Source of the DNA: Timaviella obliquedivisa GSE-PSE-MK23-08B
GTDB lineage: Bacteria > Cyanobacteriota > Cyanobacteriia > Elainellales > Elainellaceae
Reading direction: 5' to 3'
Assembly: GCA_019358855.1 (NCBI GenBank)
Contig: JAHHII010000008.1
Span: forward strand, 124,001 to 188,000
DNA: 64,000 bases
The notes beneath the pieces were generated by a model that was not told the DNA's origin, did not search any database, and saw only the letters and a list, made by a program, of their open reading frames with translations. Numbering within the stretch: the stretch's first letter is position 1; every line of letters begins with the position of its first letter. Shown piece after piece: positions 51,272 to 64,000 of this stretch. Position numbers and translations under genes: made by a program.

Positions 51272-52066
51272 CTAAGGCAGGGCAAACCGAACAAGCAAAC
51301 TTGCAACAGCACCCAAAACATTCATAAAGTTGCCCCGTGCCCCGCGTTGTCCTTGAGCCGCTGCTGCTTGCATTGCTTCAATGCCTGAAGAAAACTGGGT
51401 TGATGCTTCAGTTCCAGCCGTGTTGCCCTGGACAGTGTAAAGCTGCTCCGCTTGCTTAGAATCTTGCAGTGCCCCGGTTTGATCGCCTAGCTGAATACGA
51501 GAAATGCCGCGCGCTAGATAAGCATTAGCAAAGCTGCCATCTGCTGCGATCGCCTGATTGTAGTTTTCGATCGCGCCTCTAAAGTTGCCGCGCTGGGCTT
51601 CTGCCAGCCCCAAATTATAAAGGTTGTCATGGGTAGCTACTTGAGAAGGCAGCCCAACTGCACCCAAAAAATTTGCCCCCTCTAGATTTGCCCCTTCTAA
51701 GTTCGCCCCAGACAACCGAGCGCCTCTTAAGTCTGCGCCACTCAAGTCTGCGCCACTCAGGTCTGCGCCCGTTAAATTGGCATTGAACAAAACAGCGCCG
51801 CTGAGGTTGCTGCCACTGAGGTTACTGCCGCTGAGGTTAGCCCGAGTTAAATTAATTTGGCTAAGGTTTGCCTGGTTAATTTGAGCGCCTGCTAAGTTGG
51901 CGTACACCAGTCCTGCCCCACTCAGATCGCAGCCTTGACACATTTGGGTGGTAATTAATTGCTGGGTATCTTCTAAATCTTCGGCGTAGCTAGGTGGGGT
52001 GAAGTAGAAAGCGCCAAGTGAAGTCCCAGTAGAAAGGGTTAAGGCTAGAAAGATGAGCGGTTTCAT
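51272..52066 (-). CDS. secreted pentapeptide-repeat and TPR protein
   Basis: The ATG at 52066 gives 264 residues with a signal peptide ([20 protein letters not shown], cut near SYAE). [12 protein letters not shown] segment starts a right-handed pentapeptide helix of about 14 units ([20 protein letters not shown]). A two-unit TPR follows ([20 protein letters not shown]). The longer in-frame start at 52225 would remove the signal peptide position and overlap the upstream glycosyltransferase gene. The protein is likely periplasmic or lumenal. The role is unknown. Confidence 0.82.
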
Positions 52067-52211
52067 ACGTTTAACCGATGGAGGTTGATTAAGCAGACTA
52101 TACCCAGACCAAAAGTTTACTAAAGATTTTGGGAAAAGTGCAGATCTCTTGTCAAAATGCAAGAAACAAAGCAAGAGTTCCCTAATTCCTTCGTAAACTA
52201 ATCTCACCCCA

Positions 52212-53321
52212 CTATTCTTCACCAAATAGCCTAGCGCCTTGAAGAATGTTCTGCCTATGATACCGTTCGCTGCGGTTGTGCCGAGAGCGGCGTATGAGAA
52301 ATTTGAGGGGTCTTCCTAGCCGTTTTTGTAAAAATGATTGCTGCTGCCATTGTTCGTAATCTTGGGCGATCGAACCTGCCAAGATCTGCCGCCACTGCCA
52401 AGCGACTTGGTTGGCTGTAAAGTCTTTGACCCGTTGGAAGCCGTTTTCAACCATTGCTGCGTAAAGATCTGGGTCATTTTTTAGGCGTTGAAGCGCATCA
52501 ATAGTCTCTTTGAGGGTACGAACCTCGATAAAGTCGAGGTTAGATTGGCGAATAGCCTGGTAGGCGGGTTCGGGGCCAAGAATGGCAGGACACCCTGCGA
52601 ACCAAGCGTTGATTAGTTTAAGGGCAGGCTTAACAGTCAGGTCATGCTGGGTGTTATTACGGACGGCTAGGACTACATCGGCTTGGGTATAATCAGTCCA
52701 TTCTTGAAACAGGCGGGTGGTGGGGTCGGCGGAAGGGTCGGCAGTGACGACAAACTGAATCCCGATCGCGCTCAATTCCTCTTTAAACTGAAGCGTTTTG
52801 AAGGGGGCAGCAAGGTTACGCTCCATCCCTTTGAAGACAAGGTTTTCAACTTGGGTACCCCGATCGCTATGACGAGGAATCAAATTAGGTTGGGGCCAAT
52901 GGGGGACGTAGTGATCAGTTTTATCGATAACATTTAGGGTGTTAATGACGAGGCGCTGCTCACAAATTTCAGGACGACCGCGATCGTAGCGACAAGCCAC
53001 AACGTAGCTATTGAAGGCGCGATCGCTCGAAACCAAGTCATCATACGGCACAATGCAAATTTTGCCAGGAACATAATCAGGGACAAGGTAAACATTTAAG
53101 CCTAAACGCTTGAGACTGATGTAAGACTGGGCTGACCAAATATCTCTAACGCTCAGACAACGTTCATACAAAGGCGAAACATCTGTTGGTAGAGACTCAC
53201 TTTCTATTAAATCTTGCCAGCGCTCCACGTCCTTGCAAACAAAGTAAACCGGATAAGGCAGTGACTCTAACGGTTCTAAGTTAGACCATTGGGCAGGGGG
53301 ACGGCTAATTGTCATGGGCAA
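52212..53321 (-). CDS. GT-B-like glycosyltransferase
   Basis: 369 residues. The N-terminal half has [16 protein letters not shown] and later [20 protein letters not shown]. The C-terminal half has [20 protein letters not shown] and [20 protein letters not shown], a donor-binding region typical of GT-B enzymes. The EX7E motif is not obvious, so the family number cannot be given. The C-terminus is basic ([14 protein letters not shown]), which may bind membrane. It is 146 bases upstream of the pentapeptide/TPR gene on the same strand. Confidence 0.68.
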
Positions 53322-55130: not shown

Positions 55131-56588
55131 ATGCCTAATTTATCTCAGGTCATTTTCCCTAACTGCTTGACAGCGGTTCACACAAAGGTTTTATGGGCAG
55201 GGTTAACGCTCGCACTGGTTAGTGCAGAAACCAAGTCTGCACTAGCGGTGTCAGCGCCACTGTCTAAGTCTGTCCTCAGGCTAGAACCCTCCCTGGAACA
55301 TGCGCTGACCCATGGAGCTACCGCATCTTCTCTTGACGGGAATCTGGCTAATAGTTGGATGAGTGAAATTGAACAGGGGCAACTTGTTCAAGCAACTCCA
55401 TCGGCTTCAACCCGTCCTCGACCTGCCCCAATTAATAACCGATTTGTAGTACCACCCGGGCTGACCAACCGAGAACCCCAAAGCCAGCCCTTGCCCATGT
55501 CACCGAACCTGCCTCTAAACCCTACTCCGCCATCTAGGGGGCAGCCTCCTCCGACTGACCCTTTCGGAGCCAGTGATTCTACACGCAGTCTTGATTTGGG
55601 CGCGCCTATCACCACGCCAACCCTCAGATTACAAGGCGCATATGTGTTACAGGGCGATGAGGACAGCATTCGGGCTCGAGCAGTTGGCATCTATCCTTTG
55701 GCCGATTGGATTCAGGTAGGAGCCGTAGTTGATCTAACTGATGACGATGACTTCAACATTTTGGAAGGGGGTGGCGTAGACCTCACTGAGCTATACGTAG
55801 CAGCAGCGCCCTTCCAAAGCTTGCCAAATCTACGGTTTGTCGTGGGGCAAATTGACTTTACCTCTTACTTCGATCGCAACAGTTTTGCCAAAGATCGAAC
55901 CACTCACTTTTTTAACTCGGTTTTTCAGTCTAACCCGGCATTGCAAGCAACTACGTTTACGTCGCGTCCAGGTGCCTTGCTGAACTGGACAATTACTGAC
56001 AATGTGGAGGCGAAAGTTGCCGCTTTTTCGTCAGAGCCAAATCTGGGCGATTTTGCCGTTGATGGATTTGCTGGCGAACTGGGTTTGCGGTTAGAAAATT
56101 TCATCATTCGAGGCACCTACACCTCTGCTGTGGATAGCGGCACTCGGACTGGGTTTGATGAAATTTATGGTTTGGAGCGAGGCAATGGGCGAATTGGCTT
56201 ACTGGATGGCGATCGCGAGGACGCTTACGGTATCAATGCTGAGTACTTTTTCCCCGACATTAAGCTGGGGCTGTTTGGGCGCTACGGACACTATACAAAT
56301 CAGGATCTAGAAGGCGAAAATACGGCTGATACCTATAGTTTTGGTTTAAATCTTCTGGACTTAATGGTGCCTGACGATCGCCTGGGGCTAGGCTACGGGC
56401 GGCAGCTTTCTAACAGCAGTCTGCGAGACGACAAAACCCCTGATGTAATAGAGATTTTCTATGATGTGCGAGTTCTGCCCAACCTTAGGGTGGGCGTTAC
56501 CTTCCAGGCTTTAAATGAATTTTCAGAAAGCGTTGCTGGATTCCGCATTCGGACTGACTTTGACTTGATTCCAAGGAGAAGGCTGTAA
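55131..56588 (+). CDS. outer-membrane beta-barrel protein of the cellulose operon (BcsC-barrel-like)
   Basis: The ATG at 55131 gives 485 residues with a signal peptide (VLWAGLTLALVSAETKSALA). A Pro/Arg-rich linker (about 85-140) leads to a barrel from about residue 155 to the end: alternating amphipathic strands with aromatic girdles such as LRLQGAYVLQGDED, RFVVGQIDFTSYFDR and LRVGVTFQALNEFSESVAGF, and a C-terminal strand FRIRTDFDLI. It also resembles carbohydrate porins. It heads the run and is followed after 2 bases by the TPR gene. By position it would be the exit pore, the equivalent of the C-terminal barrel of E. coli BcsC. Function is inferred from context. Confidence 0.72.
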   Translation: MPNLSQVIFPNCLTAVHTKVLWAGLTLALVSAETKSALAVSAPLSKSVLRLEPSLEHALTHGATASSLDGNLANSWMSEIEQGQLVQATPSASTRPRPAPINNRFVVPPGLTNREPQSQPLPMSPNLPLNPTPPSRGQPPPTDPFGASDSTRSLDLGAPITTPTLRLQGAYVLQGDEDSIRARAVGIYPLADWIQVGAVVDLTDDDDFNILEGGGVDLTELYVAAAPFQSLPNLRFVVGQIDFTSYFDRNSFAKDRTTHFFNSVFQSNPALQATTFTSRPGALLNWTITDNVEAKVAAFSSEPNLGDFAVDGFAGELGLRLENFIIRGTYTSAVDSGTRTGFDEIYGLERGNGRIGLLDGDREDAYGINAEYFFPDIKLGLFGRYGHYTNQDLEGENTADTYSFGLNLLDLMVPDDRLGLGYGRQLSNSSLRDDKTPDVIEIFYDVRVLPNLRVGVTFQALNEFSESVAGFRIRTDFDLIPRRRL

Positions 56589-56590
56589 CT

Positions 56591-59005
56591 ATGACCCACA
56601 AGATAGAGGCTTCTAATCAAAAACCAAAATCTCGACCTGATGGCTGGCTGCTTGGCTTAGGGCTAAGCTCTCTAATGATGAGCGCAGTTCCTGCCATAGC
56701 ACAGGTTCCCGCTACGGTAGAAGCCGGGAATGCCCTAATTAATCAAGGGCTCATTAATCAAGCCATTCCGGTGCTGGAAGCAGCAGTCAAACAATATCCT
56801 CAATCGGTAGAGGCACGTCTGGCGTTAGCAAACGCTTATTTTAGGGCGGGCACTTATACCAACAATGAAGCCGCATTTAGAACGTATAACGAAGTTCTAG
56901 CGCTTGACCCTACAAATAAAGCGGCATTGTTTGCTGTGGGTCTGATGGGTGAGTACAAGTTTGATTGGCGGTTTGAGGGCATTGCGGCTCTGACGAGGCT
57001 GATTGAACTGGAGCCTGACAATATTGAAGCGCGCTCACAACGGGCGCTGTTAAACGGATACTTGGGCAATTTGCCCAATGCGATCGCCGATTACGATATC
57101 GTCATTCCCACCAATCCTCCACCTGAAGTTATTTTGGCAGCGGCTCAGTCGTACACTTACGCCGGAGACTACCGCAAGGCGCTGGACTTATTTACTCGCT
57201 ACAGAAGTACAGGCGGCACGATTGAGCAGTATGCAGCGATCGCCTACGGTATTGTGCTCCGGGAGACGGGCGACCCGGTTCAATCGGTTGAGATTCTTGA
57301 GCAAGCCCTGGCGAATACCACAAGGCTAGACGGTATTGCCATTCGCGCCCGCGCCGCCCTCAGCGTTTCCTACGCTCAGGTTGAGCAGATGGAGCAAGCC
57401 ATGACCGCCCTGGCACCGCTCGACGGTCGGTTTGACTCTCGGATGATTGTGGCGCGATCGCTCCATCAAATTAATGGAGATTTGGACAGCATTGAGCTAG
57501 AGCAGCAAGTCGTTGATATTTACTACAGAGTTCTAGAAGCGCCGCTGCCACCAGACTATGTTGTTCCGCCTGACAATCAGGGGCGCGAGAACTTCTACCT
57601 CACTAACTCCATTGCCCGTGAGATGGCAGATGTTTTAAGCAGTATTCCATCAGAGCGACCCCTAGCGCGCAAGCTCTACATTCAGCTTGTCGAAAGCCTG
57701 CCCGGCGATCGCATTCTGCCTGTCAACCTTGCCATCATTGAACGGCAAATGGGTTTGATTTCGCGGACAGAGCTACGTACCCGCATCCAGCCTTACATTC
57801 AGCCCCTGCCCCCCAGCACCTACGATCAGCGCTTGCTGGCTCAGGCATTGGTACGGCTCGATTCTCCTGATCCCTCTCTGCTGCCCTTCTATCAACCCTT
57901 TGTCGATGCCCAGGTCAATGAACCTTTGCTGTGGTTCCGCATTGCCCAGATGCAAATTCAGGGTAACAACTTGGCGGCGGCAAAAGCGGCTTTAACAGAG
58001 TATCAAGCCACTCAAGAGGGGCAGCAAGATCGTTATGGCACCCTGCTGTTGCTAGCCGAAATCGATCGCCGGGAGAGTAATCTCGATGGCAGTATCCAGA
58101 AGTACGAAGAAATTATTGCTGCCCCTAAGGTCGATCGGGGAATTCGCAGCGGTGCGCTCCAGGCATTAGCGGGTATTTACCGAATTAGAGGGCAACTGCC
58201 AGAAGCGATCGCCCTTTATGACCAAATTATTGCCCGCTATCCCGATGACCTTGCCAAGCCCCTCGGACGAGCCAGCCTTGCCTACCAATCCGAAGAAATC
58301 ACTCAGGCAGAGGCACAAGCCATCCTCAACCAATGGCTGACCACTCGCCCCGCTAGCGACACCCCCTTAGAGCTTTACAGCTTGGTAGCGGCATTGCCGG
58401 CTGATCCTCAAAAAGAGGCGCTTTACAACCGCCTGTTAGCGGCTACCCCTGAGTCGGTGCCTGTGCGCTTGCGCCTGTTGCAGGTTGTGGCAATGCGCGA
58501 CCCCGATGATGCCAGGGCACAACTGGCAGATTTCATTGCGAATGATCCTGAAAACCTGGGTTCTTACTTCATTCAAGGCGAGTTTGCCCAAGGTTTGGGC
58601 GACCTAGACTTAGCCAGCGAGGCATATGAGTCCATTTTGGCAAGGAGCGCTCGCAACACCGACGCTCTGGCGGCATTGGGCGGCGTGCGGTTTCAGCAGC
58701 GGCAGTACAGTGAAGCCACCGATCTTTATGCTGAAGTCTTGCAGCTAGAGCCGAGCAATCGCATTGCTCAAACAGCGATCGCTGAACTTACAGCGGCACA
58801 GGGCAATCGTTTAGAAGCCATCCGAAAACTCGAAGAAATTCAGCGCCAAGATGCTTCTAGCTCTCGCCCCGACACAACCCCTGGCCCAACTCCTGATCCA
58901 ACTCCTGACCCAACTCCTGACCCCAATCTGGTGCAACGGCAGCAGCGGATTGAGGCTGATTTCCTCCAGCAACGAGGATTTCAACCCCCCTGGGAACGGT
59001 ACTAG
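56591..59005 (+). CDS. periplasmic TPR protein, BcsC-like without the barrel
   Basis: 804 residues with a signal peptide (LGLGLSSLMMSAVPAIAQ). TPR-type helical pairs fill most of the protein (for example ARLALANAYFRAGTYTNNEA, ALQALAGIYRIRGQLPEAIA and ALGGVRFQQRQYSEATDLYA), as in the periplasmic scaffold of BcsC. A PTPDPTPDP stretch near 780 precedes the C-terminal QQRGFQPPWERY. There is no beta barrel: that part is the adjacent upstream gene. GH8 follows 20 bases later. In known systems this part spans the periplasm and guides the glucan. Confidence 0.8.
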   Translation: MTHKIEASNQKPKSRPDGWLLGLGLSSLMMSAVPAIAQVPATVEAGNALINQGLINQAIPVLEAAVKQYPQSVEARLALANAYFRAGTYTNNEAAFRTYNEVLALDPTNKAALFAVGLMGEYKFDWRFEGIAALTRLIELEPDNIEARSQRALLNGYLGNLPNAIADYDIVIPTNPPPEVILAAAQSYTYAGDYRKALDLFTRYRSTGGTIEQYAAIAYGIVLRETGDPVQSVEILEQALANTTRLDGIAIRARAALSVSYAQVEQMEQAMTALAPLDGRFDSRMIVARSLHQINGDLDSIELEQQVVDIYYRVLEAPLPPDYVVPPDNQGRENFYLTNSIAREMADVLSSIPSERPLARKLYIQLVESLPGDRILPVNLAIIERQMGLISRTELRTRIQPYIQPLPPSTYDQRLLAQALVRLDSPDPSLLPFYQPFVDAQVNEPLLWFRIAQMQIQGNNLAAAKAALTEYQATQEGQQDRYGTLLLLAEIDRRESNLDGSIQKYEEIIAAPKVDRGIRSGALQALAGIYRIRGQLPEAIALYDQIIARYPDDLAKPLGRASLAYQSEEITQAEAQAILNQWLTTRPASDTPLELYSLVAALPADPQKEALYNRLLAATPESVPVRLRLLQVVAMRDPDDARAQLADFIANDPENLGSYFIQGEFAQGLGDLDLASEAYESILARSARNTDALAALGGVRFQQRQYSEATDLYAEVLQLEPSNRIAQTAIAELTAAQGNRLEAIRKLEEIQRQDASSSRPDTTPGPTPDPTPDPTPDPNLVQRQQRIEADFLQQRGFQPPWERY

Positions 59006-59025
59006 CCCTCTCACCCAAGGTTTCC

Positions 59026-60285
59026 ATGATGCGATCGCTCCTCCGATACTTTCAACGTTCGACCCTGGTGATCCCGATGCTGTTGTTTACGGCTTCAGCG
59101 CTGTTGTTGAGTTTGCCAAGCTGTGTCGATAGCATCCAAACGTCCTCAGGGAGACTTTCAACGGCTAGCGCGGCAGTGCGTCCAATTTCTACCTCTGAGC
59201 TATTGTCACAAAGCTGGAATGCCTACCGCGATCGCTTTATTCAAGGCGATGGACGGGTAATTGACCGCGAATCGGCAGATCGCACTACCTCCGAGGCACA
59301 GGCATATGCCTTACTGCGATCGGTGCTGATGGATGATGCCGCCACCTTTGAACGGGTGCTGAACTGGGGAGAAAACAACCTTCAGCGGCGAAGTTTAGAT
59401 GGAAATCGCAGCGATCGACTTTGGGCTTGGCAGTGGGGACACAATCTGGAAAAAAATCAATGGTTGCCCCTAGATGCCAACTTTGCTAGCGATGGCGATA
59501 GCGATGCCATCACAGCGCTCATTTTTGCTGGGCGACGCTGGCAGCGATCGGATTATCTCGATTTGGCAAAGCTGAAGCTGAAGGATTTGTGGAGCTTATC
59601 GGTGTTGCCCTTAAGTAACCCAAATGATAAAAAAAACTACTTTCTACCCGGCCCTAAAGCCGTCTTTCAGCCTCAACCCAACCAAATTCTGCTGAACCCT
59701 TCCTACCTTGCTCCCTACGCCTTTCGCCTTTTTGCTCAAATTGACCCTGAGCGAGATTGGCTGAGCTTAGTAGAGAGCAGCTACGACTTATTAGCCGACT
59801 CGGCTCAACTTTCTAGCTTGCGTCTACCCAGCAATTGGGTGGTGTTAAACACGAGTACCTACAAAATCTTGCCGAACGACTTGTCCAGCCGCCTCAACAG
59901 CCGCTATGGCTACGATGCTTACCGCGTGTGGTGGCGATTGGCGCTTGATGCCGCCTGGTTTGATGAACCTCGAGCAAAGCAGTATTTGCAACAGCATCTA
60001 GAGCCGTTGCAGGCAATGTGGCGATCGCAACAGAAAATTCCTGCCGAGATTGATCTCCAAGGTCAAGCCCTCGTGCCCTACGAATCGATCGCACAGTACG
60101 CCATGCTATATGCCGCTTTTGCCATTACTAACCCCGCTCTAGCAAACCAGATTCGCCTCCAAAAGCTTCTGCCCGCTTTCCGAGATGGCTTTTGGGAAAA
60201 CGACTCTGCTTACTACATTCAAAACTTGGGCTGGCTTGGATTGTACCCTCCAGACAGGGTAGCAGCCAACTGGCTCCAGCCATAG
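59026..60285 (+). CDS. bcsZ: glycosyl hydrolase family 8 (BcsZ-like endoglucanase)
   Basis: 419 residues. The N-terminus is hydrophobic with a cysteine at 33 (LLLSLPSC), a possible but imperfect lipobox. Family 8 motifs: RTTSEAQAYALLRS with the probable general acid Glu90; DANFASDGDSDAITAL; LNPSYLAPYAFRLF; and SRYGYDAYRVWW with Asp297 as the likely base, as in BcsZ. The enzyme hydrolyses beta-1,4-glucan and is required for correct cellulose export in other bacteria. It lies between the TPR gene and bcsB. Confidence 0.9.
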   Translation: MMRSLLRYFQRSTLVIPMLLFTASALLLSLPSCVDSIQTSSGRLSTASAAVRPISTSELLSQSWNAYRDRFIQGDGRVIDRESADRTTSEAQAYALLRSVLMDDAATFERVLNWGENNLQRRSLDGNRSDRLWAWQWGHNLEKNQWLPLDANFASDGDSDAITALIFAGRRWQRSDYLDLAKLKLKDLWSLSVLPLSNPNDKKNYFLPGPKAVFQPQPNQILLNPSYLAPYAFRLFAQIDPERDWLSLVESSYDLLADSAQLSSLRLPSNWVVLNTSTYKILPNDLSSRLNSRYGYDAYRVWWRLALDAAWFDEPRAKQYLQQHLEPLQAMWRSQQKIPAEIDLQGQALVPYESIAQYAMLYAAFAITNPALANQIRLQKLLPAFRDGFWENDSAYYIQNLGWLGLYPPDRVAANWLQP

Positions 60286-60323
60286 ATTTATTCCTTCACA
60301 ACCCCTTAGCAACCCACCTGTCT

Positions 60324-62777
60324 ATGTTTCCTTTCAATCGTCACCGTACTTCTCCCTCTCGCAATCGTCGAGCTTGGCATAAACGCCCTTTAGTCTGGTT
60401 CTTTTGTTTAACTTGCCTGGGCACAGGATTAGGGCTATTGCCCACCTTGGTCAAAGCCCAAGCTAGGGGCAAAGATCAGAGTCCGCCAGTCGTGCGTCAG
60501 TTTGCCCTCCCCCATCCCCGCACCCCGTTAATTTATCAGCCCCAACTGGCGGCTTCCCTCACCTTGGCTCAAGCGGCATCTCCCAGCCCAACCCCTAGCC
60601 CATCTCCTAGCTCAGCCGCTCCTGCCATTTCCCCAACGAACTCAACTTCTGTTGCTGCTAAGACCAATGAACCCATCATTCAGCATGTTTGGGAGTTCAA
60701 CCGCAACCCCTCTGTTGGTAACCGCCTTCGGCTAGAAGGTGTTTATCCTGAGGGACATGTCGAGTTTACGCGTCCTCAGAGTTGGGATGTGCGATCGGCG
60801 CAGGTGCAACTCCGGCTTCAACATTCGCCTTCCCTATTGCCCGATCGCTCTAACATCACGGTACGGATCAATGATACGAGTGTAGGCAGCGTTCCCTTAG
60901 GCAAGAGTCAAGGGCAGCCCAACGAGATTGTATTCAACATTCCTGCCAACCTCCTGCAAGACCGCAACGACCTGTCTATCTTGACAGAGCAGCAGACCTC
61001 AGACACTTGCTCTAATCCGGCTGATCCGACCCTGTGGACTGAGATTTTGCCCGACTCTAAGGTGATTTTGAACTTTAGACCCAAGCCGATCGCCCTGGGG
61101 TTTAGCCGCTATCCCTATCCTTTTTTGGATAACCTCAGCCTCGAAACCAACAAAATTACTTACCTTCGTCCCCAGACCTACACGGCTGAATGGCTGACCG
61201 CAGCCTCTCGGTTTGAGACTTCCCTGGGCAGATGGTTAGGTAAGGTACTCCTAAACACCCAGATTGTCGGAGGATTGGGCGACGTGAAAGGGGGCGATCG
61301 CCTGGTTGTCATTGGCACGCCCGCTGAGCAACCTGCGCTTGCCCAACTGCCCTTACCCTTTGCCCTCCAAGGCGGCAAATTTGTCGATGCTAAAAAAGCC
61401 GCTATTCCTGACGACGTGGGCATTGTGATCATGGCGCTGACTAAAGACAGCCGCGTTCCCACCCTGGTTGCAACAGGCAACGCTCCGGCTGGAGTCGCCA
61501 AGGCAGTGCAGTTCTTGGTTCAAGCCAAAGATGCTCAACTAGGTACAGGGCAGGCGCTCACGGTCAACGCTCTGACCGAAGTCCCGACTCCCGCGCCGCG
61601 CAATTGGGCAGGCTATATGCCTGTCGAAAACAACTTCCAGTTGAGCGCTCTTTACGATACCAGCGGGGAACTCATTAAAGACACGACCGTGCGAGGAACC
61701 AGTGCCCCTCCGGTTCATATTGCCTTCAAGGCATTGCCCGACGATCGCTTCCTCGACGGGAGCGCCATGACCCTGCGCTACAGCTACAGCCCCCAAATGG
61801 ACAGCCGCACCTCGGCGGTCGAAGTCCGTATTGACCAGGTGACCGTTGCCTCTAAGCGGCTGAGCTCTAACGGGGGTGAACGGGAAACCTTTAGCTTCCG
61901 TTTGCCCGAAGAAAAGATTAAATCTGACTCGGTTATGGATGTCCATTTTGTGATGAAGCCGGAGGCAGGCAGCGAATGTGGCTTAGAAGCCGACCAACAA
62001 CTTTGGGGCACTGTCCATGCCAATACCAGCTTCGAGATGCGCCGCGATAACGTGGTGCGCATTCCTGACTTAACGCTGCTGCGAACCGGCTATCCCTTCA
62101 CCGAACCTCAGGATCTCTCGACAGCCGCGATCGCGCTTCCCACTAACCCAACCGAAAGCGATGTGCAAACCCTGCTGGCTTTTAGTGAGCGTTTAGGGCG
62201 AGTCAGCCAAGCCGAATCAGTTAAAACCCAGGTATTTGTCGGTGAAGTTCCGAAGGAAGCGAAGGATCGGCTCAACGTGGTTGGCATTGGCACCCGCGAT
62301 CGCCTGACTGTGCCCGAAGTGTTCCAAGAAAAAGAAGGGTTTAGCCTGGGCAACGCCTTTACTCGCCAGTGGGAACAAAGCCAAGTGCAAACCACCAGCG
62401 ACAACGAAGGAGTGGTTAAGGCGATCGTTTCCCCTTGGAACAAAGATCGCCAACTCATTGCCTTTACAGGACAGACCGAGCAAGGGCTGGAAGAGTTGCA
62501 ATCCCTTTTTCAGCAAGAGTCACTGTTTAGAAAGCTGGGCGGCGACACGTTGTTAATTAGCAGCAATACGCCCACGCCTGTCGCTTCAAACCCCGATGAT
62601 TACAACACTCAGTACCTCCAAGAAGCCAAGCAGCGCCGCGTTGCCAATACTAGCGTGGTCGGGCGAGTTGTGTTGTTCTTGCAAGACAACTGGTTCATGG
62701 TGCCTGCTGGGATTGCTTTGGTGGCGCTTCCTCTGTATGGCTTCTCTCAGCTTTATCTCAATCGCATCGATCAGTAA
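60324..62777 (+). CDS. bcsB: cellulose synthase regulatory/carbohydrate-binding subunit BcsB
   Basis: The ATG at 60324 gives 817 residues; the longer in-frame start at 60192 overlaps the GH8 gene. There is a signal peptide (PLVWFFCLTCLGTGLGLL), a Ser/Pro linker (about 95-110), then the BcsB beta domains: HVEFTRPQSWDVRSAQVQLR, NRNDLSILTEQQTSDTCSNP-type cysteine region and DVHFVMKPEAGSECGLEADQ. The last 25 residues (PAGIALVALPLYGFSQLYLN) are the membrane anchor that packs against BcsA. It lies 22 bases before bcsA. Confidence 0.9.
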   Translation: MFPFNRHRTSPSRNRRAWHKRPLVWFFCLTCLGTGLGLLPTLVKAQARGKDQSPPVVRQFALPHPRTPLIYQPQLAASLTLAQAASPSPTPSPSPSSAAPAISPTNSTSVAAKTNEPIIQHVWEFNRNPSVGNRLRLEGVYPEGHVEFTRPQSWDVRSAQVQLRLQHSPSLLPDRSNITVRINDTSVGSVPLGKSQGQPNEIVFNIPANLLQDRNDLSILTEQQTSDTCSNPADPTLWTEILPDSKVILNFRPKPIALGFSRYPYPFLDNLSLETNKITYLRPQTYTAEWLTAASRFETSLGRWLGKVLLNTQIVGGLGDVKGGDRLVVIGTPAEQPALAQLPLPFALQGGKFVDAKKAAIPDDVGIVIMALTKDSRVPTLVATGNAPAGVAKAVQFLVQAKDAQLGTGQALTVNALTEVPTPAPRNWAGYMPVENNFQLSALYDTSGELIKDTTVRGTSAPPVHIAFKALPDDRFLDGSAMTLRYSYSPQMDSRTSAVEVRIDQVTVASKRLSSNGGERETFSFRLPEEKIKSDSVMDVHFVMKPEAGSECGLEADQQLWGTVHANTSFEMRRDNVVRIPDLTLLRTGYPFTEPQDLSTAAIALPTNPTESDVQTLLAFSERLGRVSQAESVKTQVFVGEVPKEAKDRLNVVGIGTRDRLTVPEVFQEKEGFSLGNAFTRQWEQSQVQTTSDNEGVVKAIVSPWNKDRQLIAFTGQTEQGLEELQSLFQQESLFRKLGGDTLLISSNTPTPVASNPDDYNTQYLQEAKQRRVANTSVVGRVVLFLQDNWFMVPAGIALVALPLYGFSQLYLNRIDQ

Positions 62778-62799
62778 GGAATCAGTAAGGAAAATTAAT

Positions 62800-64000
62800 A
62801 TGGCAAGTATTACTCCCCCCGTGCAGCCGCGTAGACAACAATCTTGGCTGACTCGCGGGTTTATGAATCTACCGAACTGGTTTGAGCAGTTGTTTCCCAG
62901 AGCCGGAAAGTGGCAAGTGTTCTGGATTGTTATGCTGTTGCTGCTGCTCTCGGTGCCGTTGATAATTACGCCGCTTGATCTTTGGAAACAGATTTTTGTG
63001 GCAGGCATGTTAATTGTGCTAGGTTGGTTTGCCGTCAAAATTGAGGCGCGGCAAGGGCAAAAGCGTTATAGCGAATATCTGCACGTTTTTCTGGCATGGC
63101 TGAGTATTGTCACAACGCTGCGATATTTGTATTACCGTACCCACTACACGTTGGCGTTGGATAGTTGGGTGAATGGTTTTTTTAGCATTCTGCTGTATGC
63201 CGCAGAGCTATACGCGATCGCCACTCTTCTGCTCTCTTATTTCCAAACTTTGAGACTGCGCGATCGCCATGCCTTAGACTTATCTACTGTTCCTGGCGAC
63301 CAGCTTTTTAGCGTTGATGTTTACATCCCGACTTATAACGAAGATGTAGCGATCGTGCGGAAAACGGTGCTGGCTTCTTTGGCGATCGATTACCCCGAAG
63401 ATAAAAAGGAAGTTTATATTCTTGATGATGGACGCGATCCAAAATACCGCGATCGGCGGGAACAACTCCGTCAGATGTGCGCTGAATTAGGCTGTACTTT
63501 GCTTACCCGTGACAACAATGAACACGCCAAGGCTGGCAACATTAACGCCGCCCTCACCCGCACCAGCGGAGATTTAATCCTCATCCTAGATTGTGACCAC
63601 ATTCCCACCCATCAATTTCTGCAAGAAACCGTCGGCTTCTTCTACAAGCCTAAAGTCGCCATGGTGCAAACGCCCCACTGGTTCTACAACCCTGATCCTT
63701 TTGAACGGAATTTGTTAACGCGTGGACGGGTGCCTGTGACCAACGAGTTGTTCTATAAAGTGATTCAAAAAGGGAACGACTTCTGGAACGCTGCGTTCTT
63801 CTGTGGATCGGCGGCTGTGATTCGTCGGGACTATGTCTTGGATGTCGGTGGTATCGCAACGGGAACGGTGACTGAAGATTGTCATACCTCGCTGCGTTTG
63901 CACGGTAAAGGCTATGAATCGGTATACTACGACAAAATTATGGTGGCAGGTTTAGCACCCGAAACCTATCCCTCCTACGTGAAGCAGCAAGCCCGTTGGG
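62800..64000 (+). CDS. bcsA: cellulose synthase catalytic subunit BcsA (3' end outside window)
   Basis: The ATG at 62800 follows TAAGGAAAATTA. 400 residues are visible and the frame is open at the right edge. About four N-terminal membrane helices are followed by a GT2 catalytic domain: IPTYNED, DDG (209-211), DCD (264-266) with the UDP/metal Asp residues, FFCGSA (333-338), TED (358-360) carrying the catalytic base, and QQARW at 396-400, the QxxRW motif for the acceptor glucan. All are intact. The C-terminal helices and the c-di-GMP-binding PilZ domain, if any, lie beyond the window. It polymerises UDP-glucose into beta-1,4-glucan while translocating it. Confidence 0.95.
   Translation, partial: MASITPPVQPRRQQSWLTRGFMNLPNWFEQLFPRAGKWQVFWIVMLLLLLSVPLIITPLDLWKQIFVAGMLIVLGWFAVKIEARQGQKRYSEYLHVFLAWLSIVTTLRYLYYRTHYTLALDSWVNGFFSILLYAAELYAIATLLLSYFQTLRLRDRHALDLSTVPGDQLFSVDVYIPTYNEDVAIVRKTVLASLAIDYPEDKKEVYILDDGRDPKYRDRREQLRQMCAELGCTLLTRDNNEHAKAGNINAALTRTSGDLILILDCDHIPTHQFLQETVGFFYKPKVAMVQTPHWFYNPDPFERNLLTRGRVPVTNELFYKVIQKGNDFWNAAFFCGSAAVIRRDYVLDVGGIATGTVTEDCHTSLRLHGKGYESVYYDKIMVAGLAPETYPSYVKQQARW

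Follow-up and report, generated by a model that had tools for sequence, protein, structure and literature searches.

Does a cyanobacterial cellulose synthase (bcs) operon that encodes an outer membrane barrel and a tetratricopeptide repeat (TPR) protein in separate genes contain a divided BcsC, or something that takes its place? The question is raised by a 64,000-nucleotide stretch of Timaviella obliquedivisa GSE-PSE-MK23-08B (GenBank assembly GCA_019358855.1, contig JAHHII010000008.1, positions 124,001 to 188,000, forward strand), here called the window. At its end, open reading frames (ORFs) on the plus strand encode, in order, a barrel, a TPR protein, a family 8 glycoside hydrolase (GH8), BcsB, and BcsA (Table 1). 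In the type I and II operons of E. coli and Komagataeibacter, BcsC likewise combines a TPR solenoid with a 16-strand barrel and is found with BcsA, BcsB, and BcsZ. An original prediction, made from the letters of the window, described the adjacent barrel and TPR genes as BcsC split in two. Our analysis points to a different answer. The outer membrane step of this operon probably uses a recruited porin, with the glucan passing along the TPR solenoid to a porin-derived barrel exit.

Porin kinship of the barrel

By its sequence, the barrel is a relative of the cyanobacterial SLH/OprB porins that lacks an SLH domain and carries a Pro-rich N-terminal arm. In Pfam, it matched OprB (31.3 bits; cutoff, 22.9) and no other model at E ≤ 1; no SLH domain was found, and no alginate-export model matched. 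An OprB match at E ≤ 1 was present in 23 of the 31 rows of the barrel alignment, and BCSC_C (PF05420) did not match the window barrel or any of these rows at E ≤ 1. The barrel profile aligned with six cyanobacterial SLH/OprB porins over 277 columns (hhalign, 98.5%; E = 2.4e-15). Against four BcsC barrels, it aligned over 32 columns (0.6%; E = 0.093), this BcsC profile being built from 4 rows only. A comparison with PDB sequences returned just two chance matches (E ~1). Weak barrel relatives elsewhere in the phylum made up 11 rows of our genome search, with six porins aligned, four domain-scanned, and one 421-residue porin set aside. All four scanned relatives carry SLH and OprB, one with OprB just below the cutoff.

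The AlphaFold2 model of the barrel (404 residues) has 16 strands and a mean predicted local distance difference test (pLDDT) score of 72.4; its first 77 residues score below 50, and the linker is unordered. The closest solved fold is Pseudomonas putida OprB (VIA Z 25.7; 2.9 Å over 292 residues), followed by porins at 22.4 or less, and Foldseek also placed P. putida OprB first. No BcsC barrel was among the 50 structure matches listed, although absence from that list proves nothing.

Genes for a TPR protein and a barrel of 16 strands, side by side in a bcs operon, are what would remain if BcsC had undergone fission and reordering, leaving its C-terminal domain in a gene of its own. A fission of pelB has been reported for Pel operons (PMC7112194). 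The TPR profile also matched the BcsC TPR profile (98.9%), but we did not use this as evidence of kinship because TPR arrays match each other, and any such array might do the same (no control array was run). However, the absence of BCSC_C from all 31 rows and the contrasting hhalign results make this origin highly unlikely, and we rejected it. A barrel with SLH/OprB kinship and without detectable BcsC-barrel homology suggests a module that takes the place of BcsC, not a divided BcsC. The original prediction is supported in that a TPR protein and a barrel stand in the position of BcsC, but not in deriving the barrel from BcsC. Structure prediction, which it had proposed, gave 16 strands for the barrel and a solenoid for a TPR homologue, with P. 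putida OprB as the best solved match of the barrel.

The most conserved barrel stretch (Table 1) has the family form DLTSYFDRNSFAKD...FQTNPAL, which aligns with DFIDRNxYAN...NNPL of the SLH/OprB porins (in common, DRNxxA...NP). In general porins, loop L3 lies between strands 5 and 6, and the conserved stretch would take its place here. The Pro-rich N-terminal arm has a median length of about 220 residues and ranges from 117 to 859 (30 loci, without L062, L068, and L072; these lengths are approximate, being taken from mechanical ORF starts). Arms at four loci (L128, L132, L122, and L127) have repeated PTFNQLLN-like motifs, and those at L064 and L065 have YPNYPQ-type repeats. These could be binding motifs for the groove of the TPR protein.

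Many Pfam TPR models matched the TPR protein. Its homologue at locus L123 was modeled as an all-helical solenoid (pLDDT ~95), and a fold search with a barrel-plus-TPR model returned generic TPR proteins. The C-terminal tail RG(F/Y/I)QPxW was present at all 34 loci, and no similar motif was seen in the inspected parts of four BcsC sequences. E. coli BcsC, with 16 strands and 19 predicted TPRs, binds BcsB through TPR repeat 1; Trp766, where its TPR-barrel linker begins, has a putative cellulose ligand stacked on it (PMC11379886). By analogy, the Trp that is invariant in the tail of the cyanobacterial solenoid may occupy a place equivalent to Trp766.

Table 1. Features of the bcs operon at the end of the window
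Feature	Position	Strand	Basis or remarks
OprB-like outer membrane barrel, 485 residues	55131..56588	+	putative exit pore for cellulose; barrel of 16 strands preceded by a signal peptide and a Pro-rich linker
Most conserved barrel stretch, DFTSYFDRNSFAKD...FQSNPAL	55854..55943	+	invariant-column run in 31 rows; between strands 5 and 6
TPR solenoid protein, periplasmic, 804 residues	56591..59005	+	Pfam TPR models; proposed BcsB-barrel scaffold
Conserved tail RGFQPPWERY at the C terminus of the TPR protein	58973..59002	+	RG[FYI]QPxW in 33/33 rows, plus Allocoleopsis
GH8 endoglucanase (BcsZ type), 419 residues	59026..60285	+	Pfam Glyco_hydro_8, NCBIfam BcsZ
BcsB, periplasmic, C-terminal transmembrane anchor	60324..62777	+	Pfam BcsB; mechanical ORF start at 60192
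BcsA, PilZ-bearing cellulose synthase, truncated at the window end	62800..64000	+	CelA and PilZ models

Co-conservation of the barrel, the TPR protein, and BcsB

To ask how widely these genes occur together, we surveyed 386 cyanobacterial genomes, counting as strong a barrel match at E ≤ 1e-85, a TPR match at E ≤ 1e-139, and a full-length BcsB at E ≤ 1e-83. All three score lists had a wide gap below the strong matches. The barrel was found in 16 genomes (19 loci), the TPR protein in the same 16 (20 loci), and full-length BcsB in those 16 and one more, G343 (22 loci). This co-occurrence has a Fisher P value of about 2e-27, uncorrected for kinship. The 16 barrel genomes come from 7 families and 15 genera, and where members of one genus differ, they do so in the entire set. 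In genus g21, G068 and G167 have it and G278 does not; in genus g57, G289 has it and G185 does not. Every one of the 19 barrel genes is followed directly by the TPR gene, and 16 of them have BcsB on their contig no more than 10 kb away. Two of the remaining three are at contigs that end straight after the TPR gene (G005 and G118), and the third stands apart (contig C427 of G360).

Named genomes supplied 14 further loci, one of them the G118 locus, for a total of 32 distinct barrel loci. L068 is identical to L116 and was counted once; the next closest locus pairs are 87 to 92% identical in the TPR protein. Locus L072 was excluded from alignment A1. The barrel gene precedes a separate TPR gene on one strand at all 32 loci, with a 4-bp start/stop overlap at 19, an order that is far beyond chance. 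The same gene pair does recur in other cyanobacteria, as the original prediction proposed to check. It had also named two outcomes that would count against it. An OprB/SLH porin match did appear, but it did not come with a lack of bcs co-conservation, because all 16 barrel genomes have BcsB. No TPR gene of this family was seen beside a different barrel, and one (locus L111) had no barrel beside it.

The genes of these loci also diverge together. Barrel and TPR distances correlated with an r of 0.89 over 33 loci, and the distances of all locus genes gave r values of 0.78 to 0.94; none of 2,000 permutations was as high in either case (L113, L134 to L138, and L068 were left out). This shows joint inheritance, not contact, and could reflect either co-evolution or shared descent. 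The two loci of one genome keep matched partners, with L121 going with L067 in barrel, TPR protein, BcsB, and BcsA alike.

A lipoprotein family with an invariant lipobox Cys was present at 17 of these 32 loci, where its gene in most cases adjoins that of the barrel and is oriented divergently (for example, L115:5220-5975 and L133:4745-5605, with 15 more loci); at L123, its gene is placed after BcsA. In the survey, it was matched in 15 of 386 genomes, all of them barrel genomes, and the window's genome is the only one of the 16 without it. Because the profile rows came from barrel genomes, the telling result is that none of the 370 others has it. The lipoprotein matched nothing in the PDB at E ≤ 1, and its Pfam matches were no better than chance. 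PelC, a lipoprotein that forms a ring around PelB (PMC12141448), is a possible analogue.

Polymer and proposed route of export

The order, sizes, and 2-bp barrel-TPR spacing of the predicted genes were confirmed by the ORFs and their Pfam matches. GH8 matched Pfam Glyco_hydro_8 (E = 1.2e-37) and NCBIfam BcsZ (E = 4.7e-47; 160.7 bits, under the 299-bit cutoff). BcsB matched Pfam BcsB (E = 6.3e-92) and, under its cutoff, the NCBIfam BcsB model. BcsA matched Glycos_transf_2, Cellulose_synt, and PilZ (42.2 bits; cutoff, 22.5) and exceeded the NCBIfam CelA cutoff (709 versus 699 bits). The BcsA and GH8 motifs said to be intact were read in the sequence: SEA, SDGDSDA, and YDAYRVWW in GH8, and DDG, DCDH, TED, QQARW, FFCGS, FDVTDK, and RQAHR...NISENG in BcsA, the last two past the window end. 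We take FDVTDK to be the gating loop FxVTxK and RQAHR...NISENG to be the PilZ site for cyclic di-GMP (c-di-GMP). The operon is probably under c-di-GMP control.

A cellulase-type GH5 gene family recurs near nine loci (including L115:7540-8877 and L131:17513-19228), the window's locus not among them. The two members scanned both belong to GH5, and one of them also carries a cellulose-binding domain (CBM2). These genes fit cellulose as the product. The scores of BcsB and GH8 below the NCBIfam equivalog cutoffs would suit a barrel and TPR protein that secrete some other cargo (glucan or protein) beside bcs genes that make a different polymer. However, BcsA is over the CelA cutoff, cellulase-type genes recur nearby, and all the genes travel together, including the matched partners of L121 and L067, so that this explanation is most improbable.

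The GH5 genes bear on another alternative. The barrel might be an uptake porin for cello-oligosaccharides released by GH8 or GH5, with export through an unlinked pore, such as a TolC-like one. Its best solved fold is, after all, the P. putida carbohydrate porin OprB, and for other cellulose systems of cyanobacteria a route through TolC has been put forward without being tested (PMC12430437). Against this, GH8 adjoins 22 of 34 BcsB loci and is absent from beside 11 (one, at a contig edge, is undetermined), and the barrel is kept at 10 of these 11, none of which is among the nine GH5 loci. The barrel is tied to the TPR gene, at all 19 surveyed loci and with a start/stop overlap at 19 of the 32. 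We therefore consider uptake unlikely.

Our best reading is a BcsC-replacing cellulose export module, made of a recruited porin and a TPR scaffold and analogous to AlgE/AlgK. The PilZ-bearing synthase BcsA would make the glucan and hand it to BcsB. The N-terminal repeats of the TPR solenoid would bind BcsB, and the chain would be carried across the periplasm. The tail RGFQPxWERY might then dock on the barrel or feed the chain into it. The barrel, with 16 strands, SLH/OprB kinship, and a Pro-rich arm but no peptidoglycan-binding SLH domain, would be the exit. GH8 would trim stray chains and would be optional. We lean, by a little, toward a more specific version. A nutrient porin would have been recruited as a cellulose secretion pore by losing its peptidoglycan anchor and becoming linked to the TPR protein through the Trp tail and, in most lineages, to the lipoprotein. 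The tail Trp would stand in for Trp766 of BcsC and stack the chain at the mouth of the pore.

Several observations weigh against export by this module. The L3-type stretch points to a diffusion porin with a constriction, through which a glucan chain might not fit, and a read-through barrel-plus-TPR model of a homologue gave no evidence of docking (predicted template modeling score, 0.59). The barrel-TPR pair on contig C427 of G360 is away from any BcsB. Conversely, locus L111 of G011 has the TPR gene, BcsB, and BcsA without a barrel, G343 has two full BcsB genes without a strong barrel or TPR match, and five further genomes have a weaker BcsB over the Pfam cutoff, likewise without a strong match to either partner. 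In four of these five, the BcsB-like gene is beside a distant glycosyltransferase, and the fifth is a fragment. In addition, BCSC_C matched 8 of the 386 genomes at E ≤ 1e-3 (2 passing the cutoff), and these weak matches are slightly enriched with full BcsB (2 of 17, G338 and G343, versus 6 of 369; Fisher P = 0.04). Both are far from bcs loci, the one in G338, a barrel genome, being sub-threshold and 2.5 Mb away. The window's genome had no BCSC_C match at E ≤ 1e-3.

Some details of these loci can be added. L111 (9509-16903) is also without GH8, and G011 has a second, complete locus (L112). In G343, which belongs to another class of the phylum, the two BcsB genes are side by side (L113:8197-12935), with no relative of BcsA, the barrel, or the TPR protein found in the 20 kb examined. 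The pair at L134:8012-12287 and like pairs at L135, L136, and L138, from four genomes, are a different system, in which a BcsB-like protein of about 650 residues is encoded beside a glycosyltransferase. In the L134 pair, the only one scanned, the glycosyltransferase has an MshEN domain and no PilZ match.

Exporters that join TPRs to a barrel are a known kind (BcsC, PgaA, and PelB, and the two-part AlgK and AlgE). Compared with BcsC, the module here has two genes, barrel first, and a barrel related to porins, not to BCSC_C. AlgE has 18 strands, whereas the window barrel has 16 and matches OprB; polymer and synthase differ as well. AlgK and AlgE are, as here, a TPR scaffold and an outer membrane barrel in separate proteins (PMC9734138), encoded by separate genes of a synthase operon. 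However, the signal region of the window TPR protein has no lipobox cysteine, so that it is not a lipoprotein like AlgK. The SLH/OprB porins are homologous to the barrel but have SLH, whereas the barrel has a long Pro-rich arm and is fixed beside the TPR and bcs genes. PelB and PelC also provide a barrel, TPRs, and a lipoprotein partner (PMC12141448), and a lipoprotein of one family occurs in all barrel genomes but that of the window; however, PelB is one polypeptide. The type III bcs operon of one rhizobial plasmid likewise has a TPR gene of its own along with BcsA, BcsB, and GH8, but no barrel gene beside them, and its TPR protein had no blastp match to the window's (E 1e-3). The type IV system (the XcsAB-TolC model) is also cyanobacterial with a PilZ synthase, but passages of PMC12430437 describe it without bcsB and with HlyD-like and TolC parts.

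In passages of PMC4594306, a phylum survey, BcsB and GH8 domains were reported in few cyanobacteria, BcsC_C in none of the strains analyzed, and no confident outer membrane exporter for the synthase-dependent route. A different result appears in PMC4365693, which lists BcsC-type barrels in five cyanobacterial strains with a tentative heterocyst link. A 2025 review calls cyanobacterial cellulose secretion poorly defined and a research gap (PMC12430437). We found no description of the porin-type barrel, its fixed TPR pairing, the tail, or the lipoprotein in our searches of open-licence PMC literature. Some cyanobacteria appear to export cellulose via a converted nutrient porin and a separate helical guide protein. 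The loci supply candidate genes for the missing exporter, and a possible lipoprotein partner, in a named sequenced strain. If the proposal is right, a porin for diffusion has turned into a secretion pore for a polymer, which would be informative for outer membrane evolution and of use for engineering cellulose export in phototrophs.

A named strain, gene calls, and flanking genes

In Allocoleopsis franciscana PCC 7113, the barrel, TPR protein, lipoprotein (L144:7790-8596), BcsB, and BcsA are encoded on plasmid pMIC7113.02, with the barrel-TPR pair on the strand opposite to BcsB-BcsA. The barrel and lipoprotein are annotated as hypothetical proteins, and passages of PMC12587747 name the genome only. 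Among 72,556 plasmid records, the other barrel matches at E ≤ 1e-3 were two short ones (11% of the query) from Candidatus Manganitrophus. The pMIC7113.02 bcs genes adjoin a chemotaxis-type cluster, hinting at signal-controlled cellulose output. The cluster follows the bcs genes and encodes response regulators, CheW, a methyl-accepting protein, and a hybrid kinase (L144:17357-26820).

In the window, the barrel ATG is at 55131, in a mechanical frame already open from 54957. A Shine-Dalgarno sequence, AAGGAG, lies upstream of the TPR gene, its last base 12 bases ahead of the ATG. The likely ATG of BcsB is at 60324 and that of BcsA at 62800, with the BcsA gene ending about 1.04 kb past the window (L002:14037). 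A third recurring neighbor, at 13 loci, had no Pfam match above the cutoff in the two members scanned. On the minus strand, a pentapeptide/TPR protein gene and a glycosyltransferase-like gene (51272-53321) adjoin the operon and point away from it; a pentapeptide-type gene related to the window's is also near four other bcs loci.

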